DNA from: a virus
Strand: one strand, 5' to 3'
Virus record (IMG/VR): IMGVR_UViG_3300044986_000977
Coordinates: 1-33,961 of that record
Length of the DNA: 33,961 nucleotides
Part shown: positions 4,488 through 33,418 of the stretch, piece after piece
Layout: the number at the start of each line of letters is the position of its first letter
How positions within the stretch are numbered: the first letter of the stretch is position 1
Translations under genes and position numbers: made by a program
Notes under the pieces: generated by a model
Told to the model about the DNA's origin: nothing
Databases searched by the model: none
What the model saw: only the letters and a program-made list of their open reading frames with translations

Positions 4488-6251
4488 ATGACGAAAGAAC
4501 AACTAATTATTGAATATACAAAATGCATGAGGAACACTCCGTATGCATTAAAAACTTATTTACAAACTTACGATAACACGGTATCTAAGTACGTTCCTTT
4601 AGATTTATTTCCTGACCAAGTAAGATTGATTGAAGATTATGATGCTCATAATGAAAATATTGCCCTAAAATACAGACAAGCAGGTGTTTCTACCGTGACA
4701 GCAGCTTGGGCTTCAAAAAAATTAGTTTTCGCAAAAAAACAAAAACCTGAAAAAATTCTAATAATTGCCAATAAACTTGACACTTCCGTCGAGATGGCTA
4801 ACAAAATAAGGTCGTTCACGGAACAATGGCCTGAGTGGGTTGGTATCGGGTTTTCTGCAGAAAAAAACTCACAAAGACATTTCAAACTTTCAAATGATTG
4901 TGAAGTAAAGGCAGTTGCTACATCTAAAGATGCCTTACGTGGTTACACACCTACAATATTAATTTTTGATGAAGCAGCGTTCATTGAGGCGGACAATGAT
5001 TTTTGGTCTGCATGTATGGCCTCACTTTCTACAGGTGGTAAAGTTATAGTTGTTTCAACACCAAACGGATATGACCCAATCTATTATGAAATTTATGACC
5101 AAGCACTCAGAGGAATGAATGAGTTCAAAATTTCAGAAATGTTTTGGTATCGAGACCCGAGATATACAAAAGACCTTTATGTTGTAAAAACAAACGACTT
5201 AGTTCATTTTCTTCTCAATAGAGAAGACTACGCCAAAGATGTAGTTATTGACCTTTCAATAGAAAATCCATATGAGAGAGACCATTCAATTACAACAGAT
5301 TACATAAACAAGGGTTATAAACCATGTTCTGCGTGGTTCGAAGGAATGGTCAAAAAACTAAAATTTGACCGAAGAAAAGTTGCCCAAGAATTGGAGTGTA
5401 ATTTTTTGGGTTCAGGTGATAATGTTTTTGAGTCTGAATTGATGCAAAATATTGCAAAAAACAGTCTCCGAGAGCCACAAGCTAAATTGATGGGAAGTTC
5501 TCTTTGGATTTTCAAAGAACCTGAAAATAATCATAAGTACGTAATGGGTGTTGACGTTTCAAGAGGTGATTCTGAGGATTTTTCATGTATAGAAATTATT
5601 GACTTTGATACCAAAGAACAAGTATTAGAATATGTAGGTAAAATCCCTCCAGATGTACTTGCGGAGATTGCTTACAAATGGGGTACAATGTACAGAGCTT
5701 ACTGTGTTATTGATATAACTGGTGGAATGGGAATTTCTACTGCCCGAAAAATGCAAGAATTAAACTATGAGGGAGGTTTATATGTTGACAATATAGACCC
5801 AAATAAAAAATGGAAATGGGACCCAAAAGCTAATGAAAAAATACCTGGTATAAATTTTAATTCCAAAAGGGTTCAGATAATTGCATCTCTTGAAGAGGCA
5901 GTAAGACATGATTTTAAAATCTATTCCAATCGTTTATATAACGAAATGAATACCTTTATTTTTATAAACGGTAGGCCTGACCATCAAAAGGGACACCATG
6001 ATGATTGTATAATGGCCATATCTATGGCGATATATGTTGCAGAGAAATCATTTCAATCATTACAAAAAGTTGTCAACCACACTAAAGCAATGCTAAATTC
6101 ATGGACCTCAACCGTAAACGAAAATAAAAACACCTCAGATTATTTTAATCCTATGGTTCCTCAGTCTAATCGTAATTCAGGTATATATCCAACAAACGGT
6201 CCAACTAAGGCCGATTATCAAAAATATGGGTGGTTATTTGGGACCAAATAA
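4488..6251 (+). CDS. terL: Terminase large subunit (gp17-like packaging ATPase/nuclease)
   Basis: The motor that cuts concatemeric DNA and pumps it into proheads through the portal. The 587 residues compare with 610 for T4 gp17. The ATPase domain shows a Walker A-like RQAGVST (63-69), Walker B ILIFDEAAF (157-165, catalytic Glu162) and the coupling motif STPNG (190-194). The RNase H-like nuclease domain shows GVDVSRGDS (354-362, Asp356), VIDITGGMG (407-415, Asp409) and HHDDCIMA (503-510), the expected three acidic clusters. The ATG at 4488 follows the previous stop by six bases and has no Shine-Dalgarno sequence. It is followed directly by the portal gene, without tail sheath and tube genes between them as in T4. 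Confidence 0.96.
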   Translation: MTKEQLIIEYTKCMRNTPYALKTYLQTYDNTVSKYVPLDLFPDQVRLIEDYDAHNENIALKYRQAGVSTVTAAWASKKLVFAKKQKPEKILIIANKLDTSVEMANKIRSFTEQWPEWVGIGFSAEKNSQRHFKLSNDCEVKAVATSKDALRGYTPTILIFDEAAFIEADNDFWSACMASLSTGGKVIVVSTPNGYDPIYYEIYDQALRGMNEFKISEMFWYRDPRYTKDLYVVKTNDLVHFLLNREDYAKDVVIDLSIENPYERDHSITTDYINKGYKPCSAWFEGMVKKLKFDRRKVAQELECNFLGSGDNVFESELMQNIAKNSLREPQAKLMGSSLWIFKEPENNHKYVMGVDVSRGDSEDFSCIEIIDFDTKEQVLEYVGKIPPDVLAEIAYKWGTMYRAYCVIDITGGMGISTARKMQELNYEGGLYVDNIDPNKKWKWDPKANEKIPGINFNSKRVQIIASLEEAVRHDFKIYSNRLYNEMNTFIFINGRPDHQKGHHDDCIMAISMAIYVAEKSFQSLQKVVNHTKAMLNSWTSTVNENKNTSDYFNPMVPQSNRNSGIYPTNGPTKADYQKYGWLFGTK

Positions 6252-6288: not shown

Positions 6289-8121
6289 ATGAGTGAACAG
6301 AATTTAACGATTTGGCAAAGGTTATCCAAAACCTTTGGACCCAATTCTTTGTTAGGTCAAGATTATCCCACATATAAGTTTGACAAAAAAGTATTATTAC
6401 GTACAACTGACAGAACTGAATATGAGAGGGAAAAGTTACAAGCACAACAAAGTTTTTATTTAGCAAATCAGTGGGCTAAAGTTGAAAACAATCTATACTC
6501 TCAGGCCATTTATTATGAACCATCTAGGTTATCGGCACAATATGATTATGAGTCAATGGAATACACGCCTGAAATTTCCGCAGCTTTGGACATTTATGCT
6601 GAGGAATCAACAACAACTAATGAAGATGGATTTATTTTGCAAATTTACTCGGAATCTAAAAGAATCAAATCAGTTTTAGCTGACCTTTTCAACAATACTT
6701 TAGATATAAACACAAATCTACCCATGTGGACAAGAAACACTTGTAAGTATGGTGATAACTTCGTTTATCTTAAATTGGACCCTGAAAAAGGAATTGTTGG
6801 TTGTCAACAATTACCTACAATCGAAATCGAAAGAAGAGAAGTGGGAACATCACAGAAAATTACAGTTGAACCTGATAAGCCTGAAGATAGAAAAGCACTT
6901 CACTTTGATTGGAAAAATAAAAACATGACATTCCAATCATGGGAAATTGCACATTTTAGATTATTAGGTGATGACAGGAGGTTACCTTACGGTACTTCAA
7001 TGTTAGAAAAAGCAAGAAGAATTTGGAAACAATTATTATTATCTGAAGATGCGATGTTGATTTATCGTACTTCTAGAGCACCTGAAAGAAGAATTTTCAA
7101 AGTTTTCGTCGGAAACATGAACGATGATGATGTTGAAGCATATGTACAGCGTGTTGCCAACAAATTCAAGAGGGAACAAATAGTAGATAGTAAAACGGGT
7201 CAAGTTGATATGAGATTTAATCAGATGGCGGTAGACCAAGATTATTTCGTTCCTGTCAGAGACCCAGCAGCACCGAGTCCAATTGACACACTTCCTGGTG
7301 CACAAAATTTATCAGAAATTGCTGATATTGAATATATTCAGAAAAAATTACTAACAGCTCTTAGAGTTCCTAAAGCATTTTTAGGATTTGAGGAGGTGGT
7401 AGGTGATGGTAAAAACCTTTCCTTACAAGACATCAGGTTTGCCAGAACAATCAATAGGATTCAAAAAAGTATGCTACAGGAATTAAATAAAATTGCAATT
7501 GTACATTTATTCCTTTTAGGCTTTGAAGATGAACTTGAGAATTTTACTTTAGGTCTTACAAATCCCTCTACTCAAGCCGACCTACTCAAAATTGATGTTT
7601 GGAAAGAAAAGGTCACACTATATAAAGATATGGTATCTGACCCAGGAGGTGGAATATCTGCAACATCTACAACCTGGGCTAAAAAACATATTTTTGGTTG
7701 GTCAGATGATGAAGTCAAATTGGATTTACAACAACAAAGATTAGAAAGAGCTGTGGGTGAAGAATTGAAAGCAACACCAACGGTAATAACAAAAACAGGA
7801 ATATTTGATAATTTAGACAAACTATATGGGTCAACCACTGGAGGAACTACAACACAATCAGCACCTGAAACAGGAGGATTTGAACCCTCAGGTGCGGAAA
7901 CAATGGCACCACCGCCCCCAGAACAACCAGCACCTGAAGCTCCAGCAGCACCTGGAGCAACTCCTGAGGGAGGTGAAGTTACACCAGAATCCAAAACTAA
8001 AGAATTAAATATTTTAGTTGAAAATAACTTTATTGAAGGTCCAACAAACATAGATTTATCACATGGACAAAATTCTTTGGGTGAAATTACAAAGGAGTTA
8101 AACAAGTTACTAAATTCATAA
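6289..8121 (+). CDS. 20: Portal protein (gp20-like)
   Basis: A dodecameric ring at the special head vertex, the conduit for DNA packaging and the nucleation site for head assembly. The 610 residues compare with 524 in T4. Typical gp20-family features are seen: an early stretch around SAQYDYESMEYTPEISAALD (residues ~77-98), a central part with HFRLLGDDRRLPYGTSMLEKA, and later LSEIADIEYIQKKLLTALRVPKAFLGFEE. The C-terminal extension (~535-580) is rich in Pro, Ala and Glu and probably disordered, accounting for part of the extra length. No Shine-Dalgarno sequence: the leader is A-rich. It lies between terL and the unknown gene at 8145. Confidence 0.93.
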   Translation: MSEQNLTIWQRLSKTFGPNSLLGQDYPTYKFDKKVLLRTTDRTEYEREKLQAQQSFYLANQWAKVENNLYSQAIYYEPSRLSAQYDYESMEYTPEISAALDIYAEESTTTNEDGFILQIYSESKRIKSVLADLFNNTLDINTNLPMWTRNTCKYGDNFVYLKLDPEKGIVGCQQLPTIEIERREVGTSQKITVEPDKPEDRKALHFDWKNKNMTFQSWEIAHFRLLGDDRRLPYGTSMLEKARRIWKQLLLSEDAMLIYRTSRAPERRIFKVFVGNMNDDDVEAYVQRVANKFKREQIVDSKTGQVDMRFNQMAVDQDYFVPVRDPAAPSPIDTLPGAQNLSEIADIEYIQKKLLTALRVPKAFLGFEEVVGDGKNLSLQDIRFARTINRIQKSMLQELNKIAIVHLFLLGFEDELENFTLGLTNPSTQADLLKIDVWKEKVTLYKDMVSDPGGGISATSTTWAKKHIFGWSDDEVKLDLQQQRLERAVGEELKATPTVITKTGIFDNLDKLYGSTTGGTTTQSAPETGGFEPSGAETMAPPPPEQPAPEAPAAPGATPEGGEVTPESKTKELNILVENNFIEGPTNIDLSHGQNSLGEITKELNKLLNS

Positions 8122-8144: not shown

Positions 8145-8843
8145 ATGACATTCGGACAGATAAAAACCGCCATAGAAAACCATCTTATTGAATCTTATAA
8201 AAATGAAAAAGATTTTAAGAAAAGTATCAATGAATTCAGGTCTAACATATTGAATAATAAATCAATATCTAAACTTTACTCTATTTACGACCAATTGTCT
8301 ACAAATCAAGGTCTGAATGAAAGCGACGCTAAAGATTTTTTAGAAGAGGGTTTGTCTGTAATCAATAGAATCTTACCTACAATAAAATTACCCAAACTTG
8401 CTAAGGAAAATACAAATAACAATTATAAAAACATAGACACTTTAGTTTATACGAATAATTTAAATTTGTCTGAACGTGTAAATGCGAAAAAAGAAATTAT
8501 CCAAATTCTAAAATCGAAAAAAGAAAATTTAAAAGAGTCTATAAAGATACCTGTGTCTAGTATGGTCAAAATTGCGAATCAGACATTAGAAAATTACATC
8601 ACAAACATGGATGAGGATTCTAAAAAAATTTTCATGAACGTCGTGAAAACAGATAGTAAAAACTTGATAGAAGATTATCAAAATTTGAAAGACTCCACAA
8701 TAAATAAATTGAAAACAATTCTCACAAATGAATCTGAGGAAGAATTAAAATTCAAAATTGAAGAAACTATAGAAAAAATTCAAACTCAGGACTTTAATCA
8801 GATGAACTATGTGAAATTGATGAGTTTGGAAAAAAATTTATAA
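8145..8843 (+). CDS. Hypothetical helical protein between portal and protease (positional gp67/68 counterpart)
   Basis: 232 residues, Lys/Asn/Glu-rich and predicted mainly helical by eye, with long stretches such as SKKENLKESIKIPVSSMVKI. No family recognised. In T4 the corresponding interval between genes 20 and 21 encodes the prohead core proteins gp67 and gp68, so a core role is possible by position. No sequence similarity to those was recognised. It has its own upstream TATTTATT element and ends overlapping the convergent bS21 gene by six bases. Confidence 0.65.
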   Translation: MTFGQIKTAIENHLIESYKNEKDFKKSINEFRSNILNNKSISKLYSIYDQLSTNQGLNESDAKDFLEEGLSVINRILPTIKLPKLAKENTNNNYKNIDTLVYTNNLNLSERVNAKKEIIQILKSKKENLKESIKIPVSSMVKIANQTLENYITNMDEDSKKIFMNVVKTDSKNLIEDYQNLKDSTINKLKTILTNESEEELKFKIEETIEKIQTQDFNQMNYVKLMSLEKNL

Positions 8844-9026
8844 ATTATTTTTTTTTCTCTGAGTGTATTTTGCTTTCAGTAATGCTTTTCTTTTAGTAAC
8901 GGACTTTTTCTCAAATTCTTTCTTTTCAAGTAATTTTTGATTCTGTTTTGTCTTTATTACCTTGGATTTCAAAACTTTCAAAGCTTTCTCTAAATTTTCC
9001 GATTTGGTTATTTCAATAATCAACAT
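8838..9026 (-). CDS. rpsU: Phage-encoded 30S ribosomal protein bS21
   Basis: 62 residues starting MLIIEITKSENLEKALKVLK and continuing with a KxxxKT step, EFEKKSVTKRKALL and KAKYTQRKK. This matches the bS21 family (N-terminal strand, ENxExALK helix, then the basic K-SV-KR---KA-Y-Q helix), and most closely the Bacteroidetes type as I remember it. The length fits (about 62-71 residues). bS21 binds the 30S platform near the 3' end of 16S rRNA, beside the anti-Shine-Dalgarno. It is the only minus-strand gene inside the plus-strand head block up to 15577, convergent with 8145 and divergent from 9109, with its own putative promoter at 9052-9059. The Arg/Lys-rich C-terminus ends in KKNNL. I am confident in the family; its effect on translation is inference. 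Confidence 0.88.
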   Translation of the reverse strand: MLIIEITKSENLEKALKVLKSKVIKTKQNQKLLEKKEFEKKSVTKRKALLKAKYTQRKKNNL

Positions 9027-9051
9027 ATTTTATATATATTGTGTTTTTGAC

Positions 9052-9059
9052 AATAAATA
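9052..9059 (-). promoter_or_regulatory. Putative late promoter element upstream of bS21
   Basis: Read on the minus strand this is TATTTATT, 25 bases before the bS21 ATG. A second AT-rich stretch (ATATATATAAA on the minus strand) lies just before the start. The 82-base divergent gap 9027-9108 otherwise holds only the A/T-rich leader of the gene at 9109. Confidence 0.45.
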
Positions 9060-9108
9060 ACTTTATGGTTACTTTTGTATCAAAATAAACTATGAAATAT
9101 GAAAATGA

Positions 9109-9537
9109 ATGAAAAAAGGAAAAAGTGTAAAATTAAATTTATTTACACCAATTAAATCGGTATACGGAACAGTAGATTCAAAAAATTTGAAATCAATTTA
9201 CATAAATATTCAATCTTGGGTTTGTCCCAAAATTGAATATGATAATTGGAACAGAGTTGTTTGTAATTTAAACCGTGAAATAAAACATTCTGTATACAAT
9301 TCAATATCACAAGAAATTTTTTTAGAAAAAAATATTGTTGATTTAGATTTGAGAACCAGTGGTATAAACAAAGGAAAAAAATCTTTTTTTAATTTAGAAG
9401 TAAATTTATTCGTTACACAGGACTACGAATTCAAGTCACCAATTTTAAAAGAAGGTATCAAAAAAATTGTAAAAAATATTTACACAAATAATATTTCCAA
9501 CAACAAATATTTTGATTTTTCGAAATCAAAAAATTAA
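9109..9537 (+). CDS. Hypothetical protein, 142 aa
   Basis: A basic protein with a beta-rich pattern (alternating hydrophobics such as SVYGTVDSKNLKSIYINIQS), one WVCPK and one VVCNLNRE segment, and a Lys/Asn-rich C-terminus. I do not recognise it. It is placed between bS21 and the prohead protease. Several ATGs lie just upstream, the nearest frame stopping at 9112, so the 9109 start is the first that gives the full frame. No TATTTAT element was found directly upstream. Confidence 0.6.
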   Translation: MKKGKSVKLNLFTPIKSVYGTVDSKNLKSIYINIQSWVCPKIEYDNWNRVVCNLNREIKHSVYNSISQEIFLEKNIVDLDLRTSGINKGKKSFFNLEVNLFVTQDYEFKSPILKEGIKKIVKNIYTNNISNNKYFDFSKSKN

Positions 9538-9574: not shown

Positions 9575-10288
9575 ATGAAACAACTCAGAATTTTAGAAGC
9601 ACATGAAACGGGGCACGGCATTTTGATTGAGATGGATGCTGGTTATGTTTCGCCGCGAGATGAACATAATGCTAATATGTTAAAAGAAGCAAAAAATTTA
9701 GATTATAGAAATCCTTTTGAATTTTATGCTGTACTTCAGAAATACGATACTCCGAATAGAAACGGAAGATTTTATCCTGAAAAAATATTGAAAAGAGAAG
9801 CCGACAGATATAGAAAAATAATTGAGAAAGGTTTATCTACTTCTGAATTGAATCATCCTGAATCTTCACTTATAGATTTAGATAGGGTTTCACATTTAAT
9901 TACTGATGTTTGGTGGGATAAAAATATTTTGATGGGAAAATTAAAATTATTAACTACTCCAGGTTTTCATGAAAGAGGGATTGTTTCAAGTAAAGGTGAT
10001 GTTGCGGCAAATTTAATGAGACAGGGTGTGACTATGGGGGTATCGTCGAGAGGGGTTGGTTCTCTAAAGAAAGTAGGAGAAAGAAATGAAGTTCAAGATG
10101 ATTTTGAATTGATTTGTTTTGATTTGGTATCTTCTCCCTCTACACCAGGTGCTTACTTGTTCTCCGATGTAAATGACAGACATAAGTATGAAGAAAACCT
10201 CGAAGAAGAAAAAAAGGTAAAATCAGACCCTACCACAAACAAATCGCTTGATTTGATGAAAAAATTATCCGATTATTTAGGAAAATAA
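9575..10288 (+). CDS. 21: Prohead core protease (gp21-like, peptidase family S80)
   Basis: A serine protease that matures the prohead by cutting the scaffold and the capsid protein N-terminus. The 237 residues compare with 212 in T4. Features seen: YDTPNRNGRFYP (58-68), the catalytic-His region STSELNHPES (His94), the catalytic-Ser region GVTMGVSSRGVG (Ser157/158), and FDLVSSPSTPGAYLF (182-196). The short Lys/Glu-rich C-terminal tail could be autolytically removed. It is preceded by a TATTTATC element and an unusually good Shine-Dalgarno-like sequence. It stands upstream of the scaffold and capsid genes as in T4, but separated from them by an array of five small genes. Confidence 0.92.
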   Translation: MKQLRILEAHETGHGILIEMDAGYVSPRDEHNANMLKEAKNLDYRNPFEFYAVLQKYDTPNRNGRFYPEKILKREADRYRKIIEKGLSTSELNHPESSLIDLDRVSHLITDVWWDKNILMGKLKLLTTPGFHERGIVSSKGDVAANLMRQGVTMGVSSRGVGSLKKVGERNEVQDDFELICFDLVSSPSTPGAYLFSDVNDRHKYEENLEEEKKVKSDPTTNKSLDLMKKLSDYLGK

Positions 10289-10295
10289 TTTAACC

Positions 10296-10508
10296 ATGGA
10301 TGAAAAGTATTTTGTAGCAAAAATTCAATATGAATTGCCTGATGAAGCAACAGGAAAAATTAAAAAAATCAGAGAAGAAAAATTAGTAAAAGGTTTTTCA
10401 GTTACTGATGTTGAGGCCAAGGTAACCAAAAGATATCAATCTTTTTCGTATGATTGGCGGATAACCTCTGTTTCAGAAAGTAAAATTGATGAAGTTATAG
10501 AAAAATAA
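10296..10508 (+). CDS. Small DUF4494-like protein
   Basis: 70 residues: YFVAKIQYELPDEATGKIKK, then LVKGFSVTDVEAKV, then WRITSVSESKIDEVI. This strand-strand-helix-strand pattern, with the phrases VTDVEA and ITSVSESKI, matches my memory of the second half of DUF4494 proteins of Bacteroidetes and their phages. Only one repeat is present here. Function unknown. It starts eight bases after the protease stop, so is co-transcribed with it, and is followed at once by a strong terminator. Confidence 0.65.
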   Translation: MDEKYFVAKIQYELPDEATGKIKKIREEKLVKGFSVTDVEAKVTKRYQSFSYDWRITSVSESKIDEVIEK

Positions 10509-13762: not shown

Positions 13763-15577
13763 ATGGGAGCATTATTAGAATCAGGTCTTGTTGGTAATAT
13801 CGGTCTAAAACACCTTAAAGTTATCAAAGAAGACACAATCGGAAAATGGGACAAATTAGGATTCTTAGAGGGTCTTAAAGGTCACATGAGAGAAAACATC
13901 GCTCAGCTTTATGAAAACCAAGCTAGCTATTTAATAAACGAAGCTTCAACTACATCTGATACAGGTGCATTTGAAACTGTGGTTTTCCCTATCGTTAGAA
14001 GAGTATTCTCTAAATTGTTAGCTAACGATATCGTATCAGTACAGGCAATGAACTTACCTATTGGTAAATTGTTCTACTTTGTACCTAACATCCAGAACTA
14101 TACAGATACTCCAACACTTGCTGGTGCTTCTGAGCACTACGCACCTTATGGAGCACCTAATGGTCCTGCAACACCTAACGAAGGGTATAATTACAACAAT
14201 GGTAGAGACCTTTATGATAGATTTTATGAAGGTAATGAACCAGCGTTAGACCCACCAGGTTTGTTCGATTATTCGAAAGGTTCGTTTTCAACGATTACAT
14301 CTGCTGTAACTTCAGTTGTAACTGCACAGTGGAATAACACAACGTTGAATCTTGAACCTGCTGCTTATGCTACTGATAACTACAGAAAAGTATTAGTAAT
14401 CATGAGTGGTTTTGCAAATGCTGCAGCTGGTAAATTGATTGGACCAGACGGTAACCCAATCGATACAGAATCATTCTTGTCTGATTTAACAATTTATGGT
14501 GTTTCGGCAAACCCAACCACTGCAGGTGGTGGTCCTTACTTATTCAGAGTTGTTACTCAAAGATATGGTAAAGGTATAGTTCAGTATGGTGATAATAACG
14601 ACACATTAGTGTGGCCTAATTCACTTACGGATGGTGGTCAATATGACAACATTTGTGATGTGAATGGTGACATTTATTTGGAAATCGACCTTCAAGTACC
14701 TGTATGTATTACATGTGGTAACTCAATGGACGGTTACACAGGGTCTACATTTTCTTCTACAACTGCGAACAACGCAGCTTTCTCAGCTACTTACAGATTG
14801 TATAAGAACTTGGAATTCGAAGATAAAATTGGTGAAGTTTCATTTGACCTTATGTCTGTAACAGTTTCAGTTACTGAAAGAAAGTTGAGAGCACAATGGT
14901 CACCTGAAATGGCACAAGACGTTGCGGCATTCCACAATATTGATGCTGAAGCTGAATTGACAGCTTTATTGTCTGAGCAAGTTGCTGCTGAAATCGATAG
15001 AGAAATCTTGAGAGACCTTAGAAAAGGTGCGGCATGGAACTTGAGATGGGACTACAACGGATGGAAGAGATTAGGTAATGGTACTGGTGCTGTTTCATAC
15101 ACTCAAAAAGACTGGAATCAAACTTTGATTACTGCAATCAACCAATTGTCAGCACAAATCCACAAATCAACTTTGAGAGGTGGTGCTAACTGGATTGTTG
15201 TGTCTTCTGAAGTTTCAGCAATTTTTGATGATTTGGAATATTTCCACGTATCAAACGCGGCACCTGAGCAAGACCAATACAACATGGGTATTGAAAGAGT
15301 AGGTACTTTAGCTGGTAGATACCAAGTTTATAGAGACCCTTACTTCCCACCAAACCAAGTATTGATTGGTCACAAAGGAACATCGCTTCTTGACACTGGT
15401 TACATTTACGCACCATATGTACCTTTACAACTTACTCCAACAATGTATAACCCATTCAACTTCACACCTATCAAGGGTATCATGACTAGATACGCTAAGA
15501 AAATGGTTAATAACCGTTTCTATGGTAGAATCACAGTTGATGGAGTTAGAACATTCGATTTGAAAGAGTTGAGATAA
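13763..15577 (+). CDS. 23: Major capsid protein (gp23-like)
   Basis: 604 residues compared with 521 for T4 gp23; forms the capsid hexamers. The N-terminal ~60 residues are a helical delta-type domain (FLEGLKGHMRENIAQLYENQ), ending YLINE followed by ASTTSDTGAF. INE at 58-60 fits the known gp21 cleavage rule (L/I)-x-E, giving a predicted mature start at Ala61. FETVVFPIVRRVFSKLLAND and QAMNLPIGKLFYF follow, as in the gp23 family, and EKIGEVSFDLMSVTVSVTER-like and REILRDLRKGAAW segments mark the P-domain/A-domain core. A Gly/Asn/Thr-rich insert (~110-330) probably explains the extra length. The codon and base choice is less A-rich than its neighbours, as expected for a very highly expressed gene. 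No Shine-Dalgarno sequence precedes the ATG (ACTACA-ATG). Confidence 0.95.
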   Translation: MGALLESGLVGNIGLKHLKVIKEDTIGKWDKLGFLEGLKGHMRENIAQLYENQASYLINEASTTSDTGAFETVVFPIVRRVFSKLLANDIVSVQAMNLPIGKLFYFVPNIQNYTDTPTLAGASEHYAPYGAPNGPATPNEGYNYNNGRDLYDRFYEGNEPALDPPGLFDYSKGSFSTITSAVTSVVTAQWNNTTLNLEPAAYATDNYRKVLVIMSGFANAAAGKLIGPDGNPIDTESFLSDLTIYGVSANPTTAGGGPYLFRVVTQRYGKGIVQYGDNNDTLVWPNSLTDGGQYDNICDVNGDIYLEIDLQVPVCITCGNSMDGYTGSTFSSTTANNAAFSATYRLYKNLEFEDKIGEVSFDLMSVTVSVTERKLRAQWSPEMAQDVAAFHNIDAEAELTALLSEQVAAEIDREILRDLRKGAAWNLRWDYNGWKRLGNGTGAVSYTQKDWNQTLITAINQLSAQIHKSTLRGGANWIVVSSEVSAIFDDLEYFHVSNAAPEQDQYNMGIERVGTLAGRYQVYRDPYFPPNQVLIGHKGTSLLDTGYIYAPYVPLQLTPTMYNPFNFTPIKGIMTRYAKKMVNNRFYGRITVDGVRTFDLKELR

Positions 15578-24732: not shown

Positions 24733-25779
24733 TTAAAGTTTTGAAATTTGTTCTTCTAATTGATTTGCTCTGGTAGTCAAGTAATTATCGAAAAGGTTTA
24801 TCACATCAGTTGTAAATTTTTCTTTACTTTTGAATTGTTCTACGGTTTTATCCATGTTTTCATAAAGTTCAGGTTTGATATTGTCCTCTAACCAATTTTG
24901 AATGAAGTCCGCAATAAAATCGGTAATCAATGTCAAATCTGTAATCCAAACACCGTTTTCTTGTGTCATCCAAGATGGTTGTAAATCAGGAATTTTACCC
25001 AATACAGGTACTCCACACGCCATACTTTCCAAGGGGAAAGTACCAAAACCACTTTTGGTATCTACCCAAACACTGAGGAAACAATCTTTAAGTGTCTTAG
25101 CAAATTCTTTTTCACTCAAACCTCGGAGGTCTCTGAAGGTAAACCATCTGTATTGAGGAAATCTTAAATAAAAAGTTTTGATGATAGAAATTGCATCTTC
25201 TTGTTCACGAGTATGTACCCCAATAATCGGCATCGGTGGAACACCTTTTTTCGTGAATGATTCTGATATTACAGGTTCTAAAATATCTACTGAAGCTTGT
25301 CTCATTACCTTTTCAATATATTCTTTTTGAGTTTGACAGGTTGTTATACATTTATACACACCGTGTTGAGACCAAGATTGACCGGGTTGTAGTGTTTCGA
25401 GCATGTAAGCATATGATTGTGTAAGAACAATTTTTGCACAAGGAAGATTTTTTACTTGTTCCATCACGAAACCGAATAGTTCAGGAATCACCAAAAAGTC
25501 CTCGGGTGCAATTTGAAGATTTTGATTCTCAATCGATTGATGAGGTATTGTCATAAATTCTGCATCTAACCATTTATCCACACCCATATAATCATTTTTT
25601 TCATGTAAAATTATAGGGTTGAAATTAGAGTTTTTTAACTCCATTGCAATTTGATAAATGTATCTAACAGATGCTCTTGCATTTCCTTTTGTATCTTGTA
25701 CAAAAAAATAAATCTTTGATTTCTTTTCCTTCAGATTTGTTATTGAGGCTAAAACCTTTTCTTTGGAGATATTTTCCAT
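24733..25779 (-). CDS. Glycosyltransferase, GT-B fold (GT4-like)
   Basis: 348 residues. The N-terminal Rossmann part starts KIYFFVQDTKGNARASVRYI (22-41). The C-terminal domain has the donor-binding signature GFGTFPLESMACGVPVLGKI (244-263), a family-typical E-S-M-A-CG-P-V-L segment. Before it, MPIIGVHTREQEDAIS is the domain-crossover strand. No membrane segment. The donor is presumably a nucleotide sugar, unspecified. It lies between a small unknown gene and GT2, spaced by one to three bases. Confidence 0.82.
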   Translation of the reverse strand: MENISKEKVLASITNLKEKKSKIYFFVQDTKGNARASVRYIYQIAMELKNSNFNPIILHEKNDYMGVDKWLDAEFMTIPHQSIENQNLQIAPEDFLVIPELFGFVMEQVKNLPCAKIVLTQSYAYMLETLQPGQSWSQHGVYKCITTCQTQKEYIEKVMRQASVDILEPVISESFTKKGVPPMPIIGVHTREQEDAISIIKTFYLRFPQYRWFTFRDLRGLSEKEFAKTLKDCFLSVWVDTKSGFGTFPLESMACGVPVLGKIPDLQPSWMTQENGVWITDLTLITDFIADFIQNWLEDNIKPELYENMDKTVEQFKSKEKFTTDVINLFDNYLTTRANQLEEQISKL

Positions 25780-26643: not shown

Positions 26644-27371
26644 TCTTCGTATCTTTTTAATATTTGTGTTATTAAAGGGTTTCTTACAACATCAGTGTCT
26701 TTAAATTCATGAATTCCTACATCAGTAAAATCTCTAAATTTTTTCATCGCATCCCATAAACCTGTTTGAGTTTTGTCTTTGTGTCTATCAAACTGTTCTA
26801 AATCCCCTGAAATAAAAAATTTAGAATTGAAACCTATTCTTGTTAGAAGAAGTTTCATTTGACTTGGAGTAGAATTTTGAGCTTCTTCAAAAATTAAAAT
26901 CGAATTGTCAATATTCATACCCCTCATATAAGCCAATGCAAAGACCTCAATGGCTTCAATCTCTTTTAATTTTTCTCGTAATTCTTTTCCTATGATTTTA
27001 TTTAAAAGATAGTATGAGGGGAAAATATAAGGGTCAAGTTTTTCTTCTACGCCACCCGGTAAACTACCTAATTTTTCTTCGGCTTCTACCGCTGGTCTTA
27101 CGATTATAATTTTTTCAAAAGGGGTTTCTGGGTCAAATAATAAATCAACCGCACATTTCATTGCAATATAACTCTTACCAACTCCTGCAGGACCCGAACA
27201 GATTGTAATCTGATTATTTGATAACTTCTCGTAATACTCTTTTTGACTTTCTGATAAAAATTTTTGTTTTGTTTTCTTTTTTAAAATTGAAGTTATGTAC
27301 TCTTTTTTTGTTTTGTAATTGGAACTTTCTAAAGTTGGGGTAGGAGCTGGATTTTTTTTAGTTCTACTCAT
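26640..27371 (-). CDS. phoH: PhoH-family ATPase
   Basis: 243 residues: a Lys-rich N-terminus, then FLSESQKEYYEKLSNNQITI, Walker A GPAGVGKSY (60-68), IIIVRPAVEAEEKLGSLPGG (88-107), Walker B ILIFEEAQN (158-166), TPSQMKLLLTRIG (168-180), and SGDLEQFDR (188-196). This is the standard PhoH order, at the usual size for phage PhoH. PhoH is common in marine phages; its biochemical role (an RNA- or nucleotide-linked ATPase) is not settled. It is flanked by HAD and GDP-mannose epimerase genes with four-base overlaps. Confidence 0.93.
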   Translation of the reverse strand: MSRTKKNPAPTPTLESSNYKTKKEYITSILKKKTKQKFLSESQKEYYEKLSNNQITICSGPAGVGKSYIAMKCAVDLLFDPETPFEKIIIVRPAVEAEEKLGSLPGGVEEKLDPYIFPSYYLLNKIIGKELREKLKEIEAIEVFALAYMRGMNIDNSILIFEEAQNSTPSQMKLLLTRIGFNSKFFISGDLEQFDRHKDKTQTGLWDAMKKFRDFTDVGIHEFKDTDVVRNPLITQILKRYEE

Positions 27372-28489
27372 TTAACTTTGATTTTTTTTGTTTTTTGGGG
27401 TTCTCGTTTATAAACCGTTTTTCCACCATCGGGACTTTCATAAATCCACGGTGTTTCTTTTTCTAATGTATCTATTTGTGATTTAATCCAATTGAACGTT
27501 TTTTTCAATCCTATGGATAGAGGTTGACTGACTTCCCAACCAATTTTTTCTCTATATAGTTTATTGTCTGAGTTTCTACCTTTAACACCTAATGGACATT
27601 TGAAACCATACTTCGAAAGGAATTCATCCCCTTCTATGTTTCTTATTTTAATATTTTTTCCTGAAAATTCAATAGCCATTCGTGCTAATTGGTTGATTGT
27701 CACCATTTCTTCACTTCCTATATTGACGGGACCAGTGAATTTAGAATTCATCAATCTTAGAACAGCTTCAACACACTCATCGACATATAGAAAAGACCTG
27801 GTTTGTTGACCATTCCCCCAAACTTCTAACTCTTCACCGTCGTTTAGTTCTGCGGCTTTTCTACACATCGCTGCGGGAGATTTTTCACGTCCGCCTGTCC
27901 ATGTCCCCTGTGGTCCAAATATGTTATGGAATCTGGCTATTCTGACATCTAAACCATAATTTCTGTGATAAGCCAAATAAATTCTTTCTGAAAAAAGTTT
28001 TTCCCATCCGTATTCAGAATCAGGATTTGCGGGGTATGCAGAACTTTCTTCACAATTTGGATTATTGGGGTCTAGTTGGTTGTGTTCTGGATACATACAT
28101 GCCGATGAGGAATAGAAAACTTTTTTTACTTTTTTCTTAACACATTCATTGGCAACATTCAAATTTATCAAAGAGGAATTGTGCATTAAATTTGCATCAT
28201 TTTCGCCTGTGAAAATATACAAAGCACCTCCCATATCGGCTGCTAGTTGATATAATTCATCGACATCCTGTTCGATGACCAAGTCAACAACTTTAGGGTC
28301 AGTTAAATCCCCCAAAATGAATTCGTGACAAATTTCATCTTGAAAAAAATATTCGTGTTTTTTTATATCACAAATTCTAACGTGATTTCCTTCCTCTTTT
28401 AATCTTTTAGCTAAGTGTCCTCCTATGAAGCCACCGCCACCAAGAACAACTATTTTTTTACCTATTGATTGATTCTTCTGCAACTTCAT
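27368..28489 (-). CDS. gme: GDP-mannose 3,5-epimerase-like extended SDR
   Basis: 373 residues. An N-terminal NAD site, VVLGGGGFIGGHLAKR (14-29), is followed by LAADMGGALYIFTGENDANL (82-101), SSSACMYPE (127-135), the Y-x3-K pair in SEYGWEKL (Tyr160, Lys164), ARFHNIFGPQGTWTGGREKS (185-204), CRKAAELNDGEELEVWGNGQ and TRSFLYVDEC. The pattern, AxMGG, SSACxYPE, YGWEK and FHNxxGPxGTWxGGREK, is that of GDP-mannose 3,5-epimerase. Cys131, Tyr160, Lys164 and Lys203 keep the spacing I recall for plant GME catalytic residues (145, 174, 178, 217). Product: GDP-L-galactose (plus GDP-L-gulose) from GDP-mannose. The C-terminal extension is Lys-rich. It overlaps the upstream methyltransferase by 32 bases and phoH by four. 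Confidence 0.88.
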   Translation of the reverse strand: MKLQKNQSIGKKIVVLGGGGFIGGHLAKRLKEEGNHVRICDIKKHEYFFQDEICHEFILGDLTDPKVVDLVIEQDVDELYQLAADMGGALYIFTGENDANLMHNSSLINLNVANECVKKKVKKVFYSSSACMYPEHNQLDPNNPNCEESSAYPANPDSEYGWEKLFSERIYLAYHRNYGLDVRIARFHNIFGPQGTWTGGREKSPAAMCRKAAELNDGEELEVWGNGQQTRSFLYVDECVEAVLRLMNSKFTGPVNIGSEEMVTINQLARMAIEFSGKNIKIRNIEGDEFLSKYGFKCPLGVKGRNSDNKLYREKIGWEVSQPLSIGLKKTFNWIKSQIDTLEKETPWIYESPDGGKTVYKREPQKTKKIKVK

Positions 28490-31976: not shown

Positions 31977-32795
31977 TTAATTTTTTGGTTTCAGTTCACC
32001 GTTTATATATTCTACTTCTATTTTATTCCAATCAGGTTGAAACATATCCATGTAGTTTTGTGGTCCACTTGGTCCAAACCATACAGATGGAACAAAAACT
32101 TTTTTATTTGGATTTTGGTTTAGCAAAGCCGCCCACCAAGAAAATGTAGAATTGGAAATGATATTTGATTTACAAAGTGACATTATCCACATATCGATGT
32201 AATCTTCCTCATTTATAAGTGTCACATTATCACTCTTGAAATTTTCTAATAACCAGTTTTTATCATCTCCGAAAAGAAATAGATGGTCGTAATTTCCGAT
32301 AATGGTAAGTGCTTTGTCAATATATTCTTTGGAAACACTGGGATGAATGTGGGGGTTTTGTTTATAATCACCAAATCTCACGTGTATTGAAACTGTGTTT
32401 TCTTGATTAAGTTGAGGATACTTCTCCTTAATTTGTTTGATGAATTCTTCCGTTGGTCCAAAATATTCAATAATGTTTTTGTCGAATCCCAAAAAGTTTT
32501 TTCCGCTTTGGAAGTATCCTTCAAACACAGTGTTGCCTTCTACAGGATTCACATCAGAAAATTCCCATGGACCTTCGTGAACTTTTGTAAATCCATCTAA
32601 ACTATCTATAAATTTAAGTTTTCTGAATACGTTGTCTCGATAGTTCGAAGCGTCTCTACCTTGCATGGGTGTCCACGATTTGGGTAAAAAAACTGCCTCT
32701 CTATGATGTTTCCAAGCTTGACAAAGGGCGTGAGCGGCTTGGAACATTTGATTTCCAAGTCCACCCATCAGATTACAAGAAATTAAATTATTCAT
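31977..32795 (-). CDS. GT11 alpha-1,2-fucosyltransferase-like glycosyltransferase
   Basis: 272 residues from the ATG at 32795, which overlaps the upstream stop as ATGA; a start at 32846 adds 17 residues that overlap the neighbour and do not match the family. Family motifs in order: LMGGLGNQMFQAAHA (9-23), VSIHVRFGDYKQ (135-146, the HxRxGDY donor motif), HLFLFGDD (171-178), and ISNSTFSWWAALL (213-225). The usual length for bacterial GT11 is about 280-300. It transfers L-fucose from GDP-L-fucose in known members; GDP-L-galactose is a possible donor here. Confidence 0.9.
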   Translation of the reverse strand: MNNLISCNLMGGLGNQMFQAAHALCQAWKHHREAVFLPKSWTPMQGRDASNYRDNVFRKLKFIDSLDGFTKVHEGPWEFSDVNPVEGNTVFEGYFQSGKNFLGFDKNIIEYFGPTEEFIKQIKEKYPQLNQENTVSIHVRFGDYKQNPHIHPSVSKEYIDKALTIIGNYDHLFLFGDDKNWLLENFKSDNVTLINEEDYIDMWIMSLCKSNIISNSTFSWWAALLNQNPNKKVFVPSVWFGPSGPQNYMDMFQPDWNKIEVEYINGELKPKN

Positions 32796-33418
32796 TTTTG
32801 AAATGTTGTGTTTTCCCAAGATTCCCAAACAAATGGATATTCCCATTTAAGTTTGAAACCAATTTGAGTTAATCCCTCTTGAATTTTTTTATGTCTCTCT
32901 TCATAGTTTTCACCCATTCTGTGGTACTGAACTTGAATATAGTTGAACTTTTGTAAAATACCTGACTTAATCCATTCTTCCATAAGAGGGTACTCCTCCC
33001 CCTCGATATTAACCTGCATCAAATCTACCTTATCAATATTGTGTTTATCCAAATAATATTCTAAGGTGTGACATTTAACGGTTTGAAGGTTATTAGAATT
33101 CAAATAAGCGGATGTCGCATCACCATCAACCGCAAAAGACAACTCTTTTTCTTCTGTGGAAATACCAGCATTTTCAGTTTTGATTTTGTCTCTATTGTTT
33201 TTGAGGTAATAATCAAATTCTACAATCATTTTGTCGTAAAATTCTTTTATTGGTTCAATGACCAAAACATTACAATTGAATTTAGTTGAAACTCTTTTAG
33301 TCCAAAGACCGTGAAAACCACCAAGTTCAATGACTTGAGAATTTTCATTTAAGGGATAATCTAATACGAGAATATCGTCTCCTTTATCTGCTCTCCATTT
33401 TGCGTGTATTTCTGACAT
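32792..33418 (-). CDS. FkbM-family methyltransferase
   Basis: 208 residues: VIELGGFHGLWTKRVSTKF (29-47, SAM motif I), VLVIEPIKEFYDKM (51-64), NAGISTEEKELSF (83-95), and VDLMQVNIEGEEYPLME (131-147, the D-x-x-x-x-x-x-E-G-x-E core of FkbM). No membrane segment. It is three bases after the GT2 gene and four bases overlapping GT11, so its methyl transfer is likely to an operon-built sugar. The first 10 residues (SEIHAKWRAD) are short for the family, with a slightly truncated N-terminus. Confidence 0.85.
   Translation of the reverse strand: MSEIHAKWRADKGDDILVLDYPLNENSQVIELGGFHGLWTKRVSTKFNCNVLVIEPIKEFYDKMIVEFDYYLKNNRDKIKTENAGISTEEKELSFAVDGDATSAYLNSNNLQTVKCHTLEYYLDKHNIDKVDLMQVNIEGEEYPLMEEWIKSGILQKFNYIQVQYHRMGENYEERHKKIQEGLTQIGFKLKWEYPFVWESWENTTFQK

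Follow-up and report, generated by a model that had tools for sequence, protein, structure and literature searches.

A reversed bS21 gene within a phage head-gene block

A gene encoding a 62-residue protein of the bS21 family lies in reverse orientation inside a plus-strand block of terminase, portal, protease and capsid genes. It was found in the window, by which we mean the whole 33,961-base stretch analysed here, an IMG/VR virus record classed as linear and probably a fragment. The block comprises the following features:

4488..6251, plus strand: terminase large subunit (phrog_2, E 4.1e-38)
6289..8121, plus strand: portal protein of the T4 gp20 type (PF07230, E 4.3e-78)
8145..8843, plus strand: up1, 232 aa, convergent with bS21, the ends of the two genes overlapping by 6 nt
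8838..9026, minus strand: phage bS21 gene, 62 aa, with an ATG start, a match to Pfam PF01165, matches to bS21 in the PDB and two predicted helices
9027..9108, no strand: 82-nt gap separating the divergently transcribed genes for bS21 and bS21_CN, without a Shine-Dalgarno (SD) sequence on the bS21 side
9109..9537, plus strand: bS21_CN, 142 aa, conserved divergent neighbour, function unassigned
9575..10288, plus strand: prohead protease (PF03420, E 4.8e-22)
13763..15577, plus strand: major capsid protein of the T4 gp23 type (PF07068, E 8.4e-72)

The open reading frame is where the original prediction placed it, within a head-gene block. On one side bS21 converges with up1, for which profile searches returned no family match; on the other, the 142-aa gene at 9109-9537 points away from it. 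Chen et al. 2022 (PMC9723584) reported 47 genomes with a reverse-strand bS21 in the same block, for which Bacteroidetes hosts were predicted, and the placement in the window is that of their phages. We found no difference setting the window apart from those jumbo phages (clades a-e), with which it shares the reversed bS21, the block, a T4-like myovirus type, an aromatic residue 54 and a divergent bS21_CN. The Microcystis phage Mel-JY01 (PP395634) also carries a gene annotated as bS21 (RpsU) near its prohead protease and has a related portal (35.5% identity), but its RpsU is encoded on the head-gene strand, after the protease, and is a 75-aa protein of another bS21 type.

The window appears to derive from a T4-like, lake-type phage. 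Its host was probably a member of the Bacteroidetes, because the bS21 is of that type, the genes are SD-less, a DUF4494 protein (Pfam) is encoded at 10296-10508 and cultured Flavobacterium phages are among the nearest portal relatives. The minus strand of the window also carries sugar genes, namely a weak match to glycosyltransferase group 1 (24733-25779), an enzyme of the NAD-dependent epimerase/GDP-mannose dehydratase type (27368-28489) and a glycosyltransferase of family 11 (31977-32846), which fit a change of cell-surface polysaccharide as reported for this phage group.

The protein scores 31.6 bits against Pfam PF01165 (Ribosomal_S21; curated cut-off 27), with residues 4-57 covering profile positions 2-55 of 55, and its closest solved structures are Bacteroidota bS21 proteins (9i5v, E 4.6e-7; F. 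johnsoniae 7jil, E 2.2e-6). The assignment to the family is borne out by Pfam, and the proposed likeness to the Bacteroidetes type, also published for the phage group (PMC9723584), by the PDB matches. Against the NCBIfam S21p equivalog model TIGR00030, the window protein scores 19.0 bits, under the curated cut-off of 28.95, whereas F. johnsoniae bS21 scores 54.9, host proteins 41-55 and two phage relatives 25.7 and 29.1. Because it falls below this cut-off, we file the window protein as a bS21-family member of a divergent phage lineage, its status as an S21 equivalog being unproven from sequence. An AlphaFold2 model has the bS21 layout, with helices at 9-34 and 41-59 (pLDDT 82.8, pTM only 0.38); Foldseek and VIA-align searches with this model gave no match, which carries little weight for a two-helix chain. 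A tblastn search of the 62-aa protein against named phages was likewise negative. The observation is nevertheless beyond chance: viral homologues number in the hundreds by sequence search, the gene keeps a constant place among those fetched, and its dN/dS is low (median 0.105 over 172 pairs), which reflects purifying selection.

Conservation of the slot, its neighbour and candidate promoters

Wherever the contig was long enough, loci fetched by bS21 sequence showed identical gene order and orientation. Since that sample had been picked by bS21 itself, a second one was anchored on an alignment of the protease, yielding 80 loci, 8 of which end too near to be judged. In the 72 informative loci bS21 is present 65 times, with every copy reversed and in the same slot, and it is absent from 7. 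One of the loci lacking it belongs to a 309-kb record, in which a phage-profile search detected no copy elsewhere. Absence from seven related loci, together with the negative search of that record, shows bS21 to be dispensable in this phage group. The opposite orientation to the surrounding genes noted in the original prediction is therefore a property of all 65 carrying loci, while its comparison of the gene to a moron cassette is not supported: recent, patchy insertion is rejected for a syntenic core locus fixed in the lineage and found at one position in 65 of 72 loci. In two of the loci without bS21 (L229 and L238), the space between up1 and bS21_CN contains by eye a hairpin followed by a T run, resembling an intrinsic terminator.

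The neighbour bS21_CN is present in all 72 informative loci, including the 7 without bS21, which rules it out as a strict partner of bS21; Chen et al., in contrast, detected no copy in either of the two outgroups they used (PMC9723584). Its predicted fold is confident (pLDDT 92), with no clear structural match in the PDB and one viral relative in BFVD. A second, out-of-frame ATG precedes the start codon of bS21_CN by about 9-10 nt; it is conserved both in the window (ATGAAAATTAATG; 9088-9130, plus strand) and in relatives, and opens a short overlapping reading frame.

The gap and the wider block contain these promoter-like elements:

9047..9077, plus strand: Bacteroidetes-type promoter TTG-N20-TACTTTTG (9047-9049 and 9070-9077), directed towards bS21_CN
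9031..9040, minus strand: AT-rich box immediately before the start codon of bS21, in the place of the family motif ATATTTnTA, degenerate in the window (AATATATATA)
6253, 11978 and 15863, plus strand, and 19001, minus strand: TATTTATA boxes

The form TTG-N20-TAnnTTT, which we take to be that of Bacteroidetes promoters, points towards bS21_CN in 68 of 87 thinned gaps, compared with 4.3 in shuffles, and its spacer is 20 in 67 of them. A scan of 8700-9300 gave neither promoter nor terminator above chance; for sigma-70 it returned 1 site against 4.6 in shuffles, fewer than chance. When a shared divergent element at -33 was considered, the signal towards bS21 was weak. The promoter-like element attributed to bS21 in the original prediction is thus not its own: the conserved promoter of the gap faces the plus-strand neighbour, and a separate bS21 promoter in the window is not supported in view of this orientation and of the sigma-70 count below shuffles.

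The motif ATATTTnTA is found in 69 of 130 phage bS21 leaders (4.8 in shuffles), most often 13 nt before the ATG. This motif or the TATTTATA box also lies upstream of the portal gene (71 of 77 relatives, 36 nt before the ATG) and of the up1 and protease genes. We regard the TATTTATA box as a candidate late promoter of the phage group. As a lead, if the ATATTTnTA box, degenerate in its window copy, were a late promoter, the bS21 mRNA would be almost leaderless.

Residues 18-30, residue 54 and the bS21 leader

Two parts of the protein distinguish what the phage lineage has changed from what it has kept:

8937..8975, minus strand: codons 18-30, changed from the host sequence and almost constant among phages (VLKSKVIKTKQNQ in the window, RYKRKFDKTGTVR in F. 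johnsoniae)
8865..8867, minus strand: codon 54 (Tyr), equivalent to the F. johnsoniae residue stacked against the anti-SD (PMC9723584 and PMC9976891)

Positions were tabulated for 60 phage and 62 host sequences and cross-checked on the 58 distinct phage proteins of the protease-anchored sample. The alignment with host bS21 proteins that the original prediction had proposed reveals a rewritten segment 18-30 and a residue 54 that stays aromatic. In the cross-check set, Ser stands at position 21 in 44 proteins, Val at 23 and Ile at 24 in 54 each, Lys or Arg at 27 in all 58 and Gln at 28 in 56; canonical Flavobacteriaceae bS21 has Arg 21, Phe 23, mostly Asp 24, mostly Gly 27 and never Gln 28. Residue 54, Tyr in the window, is aromatic in 58 of 58, as in bS21 of the anti-SD-sequestering type, and K20, K22, S42 and R46 are invariant. 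The phage bS21 probably keeps the contact that sequesters the anti-SD. Compared with the chromosomal bS21 of F. johnsoniae (7jil), the window protein is alike in length, in its two helices and in K20, K22, K40, S42, R46, A52 and Tyr54; it differs from the Flavobacteriaceae chromosomal proteins by R21S, F23V, D24I, G27K and T28Q, by the lack of an extended SD and by its position in a separate clade. This clade unites all 60 phage representatives apart from the hosts with support 100/99, on 64 columns that do not fix its point of attachment.

In many Flavobacteriaceae genomes, bS21 is encoded two or three times (for example L092, L093, L401, L407, L414 and L425). Nearly all of the second and third copies lack an extended SD, have Lys or Gln at position 27 and are changed in segment 23-28. 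These SD-less copies resemble the phage gene in mostly lacking an SD and in having Lys 27 and sometimes Gln 28 (KVRKTKQ in L093), but the remainder of the protein is host-like. Such extra copies may escape rpsU autoregulation, like the phage gene. Constrained trees placing the phage clade with the SD-less host copies or with non-Flavobacteriaceae were both retained (AU p 0.27 and 0.28), and the profile scores of phage bS21 are split between host classes; descent from SD-less host second copies is neither shown nor rejected by these comparisons.

As a measure of SD strength we used the predicted pairing energy of each leader with the 16S 3' end. Host bS21 leaders (51, all classes) have a median of -13.1 kcal/mol, whereas the 126 distinct phage bS21 leaders have a median of 0.2 kcal/mol, with 122 of them lacking any SD core. 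The window leader, at +2.6 kcal/mol, does not have the extended SD of autoregulated Flavobacteriales rpsU. All 28 canonical Flavobacteriaceae leaders in the tree, from which one canonical leader that lacks an SD (L190) was omitted for an ambiguous residue, are at -6 or below, against an SD core in 4 of 126 phage leaders (Fisher p 8e-27, a value that overstates independence, as the sequences are related). The absence from phage bS21 of the extended SD by which the sampled canonical Flavobacteriaceae rpsU autoregulates is new here.

The lack of SD pairing extends to the rest of the phage. Mean pairing energy over 35 window genes is -0.5, compared with -0.3 when shuffled, and only one of 433 distinct leaders from five conserved late genes in relatives is at or below -6; by this predicted measure the structural genes are SD-less.

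The mechanism named in the original prediction, in which bS21 helps F. johnsoniae ribosomes to sequester the anti-SD, is correct (PMC9976891). The F. johnsoniae rpsU gene has an extended SD and is better translated when ribosomes carry no bS21, and the protein thereby restrains its own production (PMC9976891, McNutt et al. 2023). When bS21 is missing or cut at the C-terminus, ribosomes start weakly on SD-less mRNAs and more readily on rpsU (PMC9976891). A phage bS21 that frees the anti-SD to favour phage messages is rejected, since phage genes are SD-less and residue 54 is kept, and the SD form of the suggested change in start-site choice is likewise not supported.

Probable supply of bS21 and a possible link to the autoregulation of rpsU

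On balance, we consider it probable that the phage provides bS21 to serve its SD-less late mRNAs while the anti-SD remains sequestered, and that it does so outside the autoregulatory loop of the host. The phage protein would take the place of bS21 on Bacteroidetes 30S subunits late in infection, where its aromatic residue 54 would hold the anti-SD and so keep ribosomes in the SD-less mode of initiation that the phage late mRNAs need. Supply of bS21 would matter because loss of the protein, or of its C-terminus, impairs initiation by F. johnsoniae ribosomes on SD-less mRNAs, and expression of the phage gene would stand outside the host loop because its own mRNA has no extended SD. Continued supply with the anti-SD held is the best reading, preferred over a switch of ribosomes to SD use.

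Support from this work comprises the family identity, the fixed place, purifying selection, residue 54, segment 18-30 and the SD-less leader and structural genes. Related systems add the late transcription of bS21 with the structural genes in relatives (PMC9723584) and the entry of a pelagiphage bS21 into ribosomes (PMC6375957). We infer from these its incorporation, its timing here, its effects on translation and its benefit to the phage. That the phage copy could replace host bS21, as originally predicted, is plausible and published for the phage group (PMC9723584), with ribosome entry in the present case presumed. Several points speak against the supply reading. Substitution may instead inhibit, by analogy with the pelagiphage protein, which left E. 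coli ribosomes about 5% active (PMC6375957); the gene is missing from seven related loci and the NCBIfam equivalog cut-off is missed; and the rewritten segment 18-30, whose freezing supply does not explain, suggests more than plain provision of bS21.

An extension of continued supply, which we put forward tentatively and hold to be somewhat unlikely, links it to host rpsU. Phage bS21 would fill the ribosomal site, the host loop would read bS21 as plentiful, rpsU translation would stop and SD-less phage mRNA would continue to be translated, so that host bS21 would be replaced in one direction with no need of a protease. The SD-less leader, the retained residue 54 and the SD-less structural genes are observed; incorporation, sequestration by the phage protein and silencing of rpsU would be the remaining steps. 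PMC9976891 suggests the opposite, namely that host bS21 would be replenished through autoregulation as a counter-defence, and we did not find the present idea in the literature searched.

We judge it unlikely that residues 18-30, which lie where the first helix ends above the path of the mRNA, shift the choice of mRNA towards phage messages. This is the published reading and that of the original prediction, whose hypothesis was already in print because Chen et al. 2022 proposed replacement of the host bS21 by the phage copy, to the advantage of phage messages (PMC9723584). These authors found the aromatic residue 54 conserved and located the diverging residues in the N-terminal helix, close to the mRNA, and segment 18-30 is unlike all host classes and nearly fixed across a diverse phage clade, including the sample not chosen by bS21. 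The best argument for such selectivity is that rewriting followed by freezing implies a selected function beyond mere presence. However, we found no shared sequence feature marking phage messages, SD being excluded as such a feature, and the change is not exclusive to phages, some second host copies being partly similar.

It is improbable that phage bS21 acts by making ribosomes poor on host messages, leaving the phage to use remaining ribosomes or other factors. The incorporation of the pelagiphage HTVC008M protein into E. coli ribosomes with a drop in activity (Mizuno et al. 2019, PMC6375957) fits this idea, but that test crossed phyla, its authors name incompatibility, and late expression with structural genes (PMC9723584) suits protein making better than early shut-off. 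The pelagiphage case is alike in concerning a phage-encoded bS21 of a large myovirus; it differs in its Alphaproteobacterial origin and host translation system (PMC6375957). Least probable of all is a role off the ribosome, as a basic two-helix protein in head assembly or packaging or carried in the virion to the next cell, which the constant place within the head block and the packaging in the particle raised as a possibility by Chen et al. (PMC9723584) favour. A purely structural role would not require the retained residue 54 and rRNA-type basic residues, and seven related phages build heads without the protein.

The gene is real and its arrangement already published. Its interest comes not from being there but from a connection to host rpsU autoregulation that can be put to the test. 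Why phages carry bS21 has a published answer that is still hypothetical (PMC9723584). The comparison presented here argues against an SD-based choice of phage messages, narrows the idea of selectivity to residues 18-30, and indicates that the phage gene has dropped the control element of host rpsU while keeping the residue that the loop senses. Phage bS21 stands outside the feedback control of the host and may in addition silence host rpsU; if so, its expression in F. johnsoniae would lower an rpsU'-gfp reporter and not a reporter carrying the phage bS21 leader.
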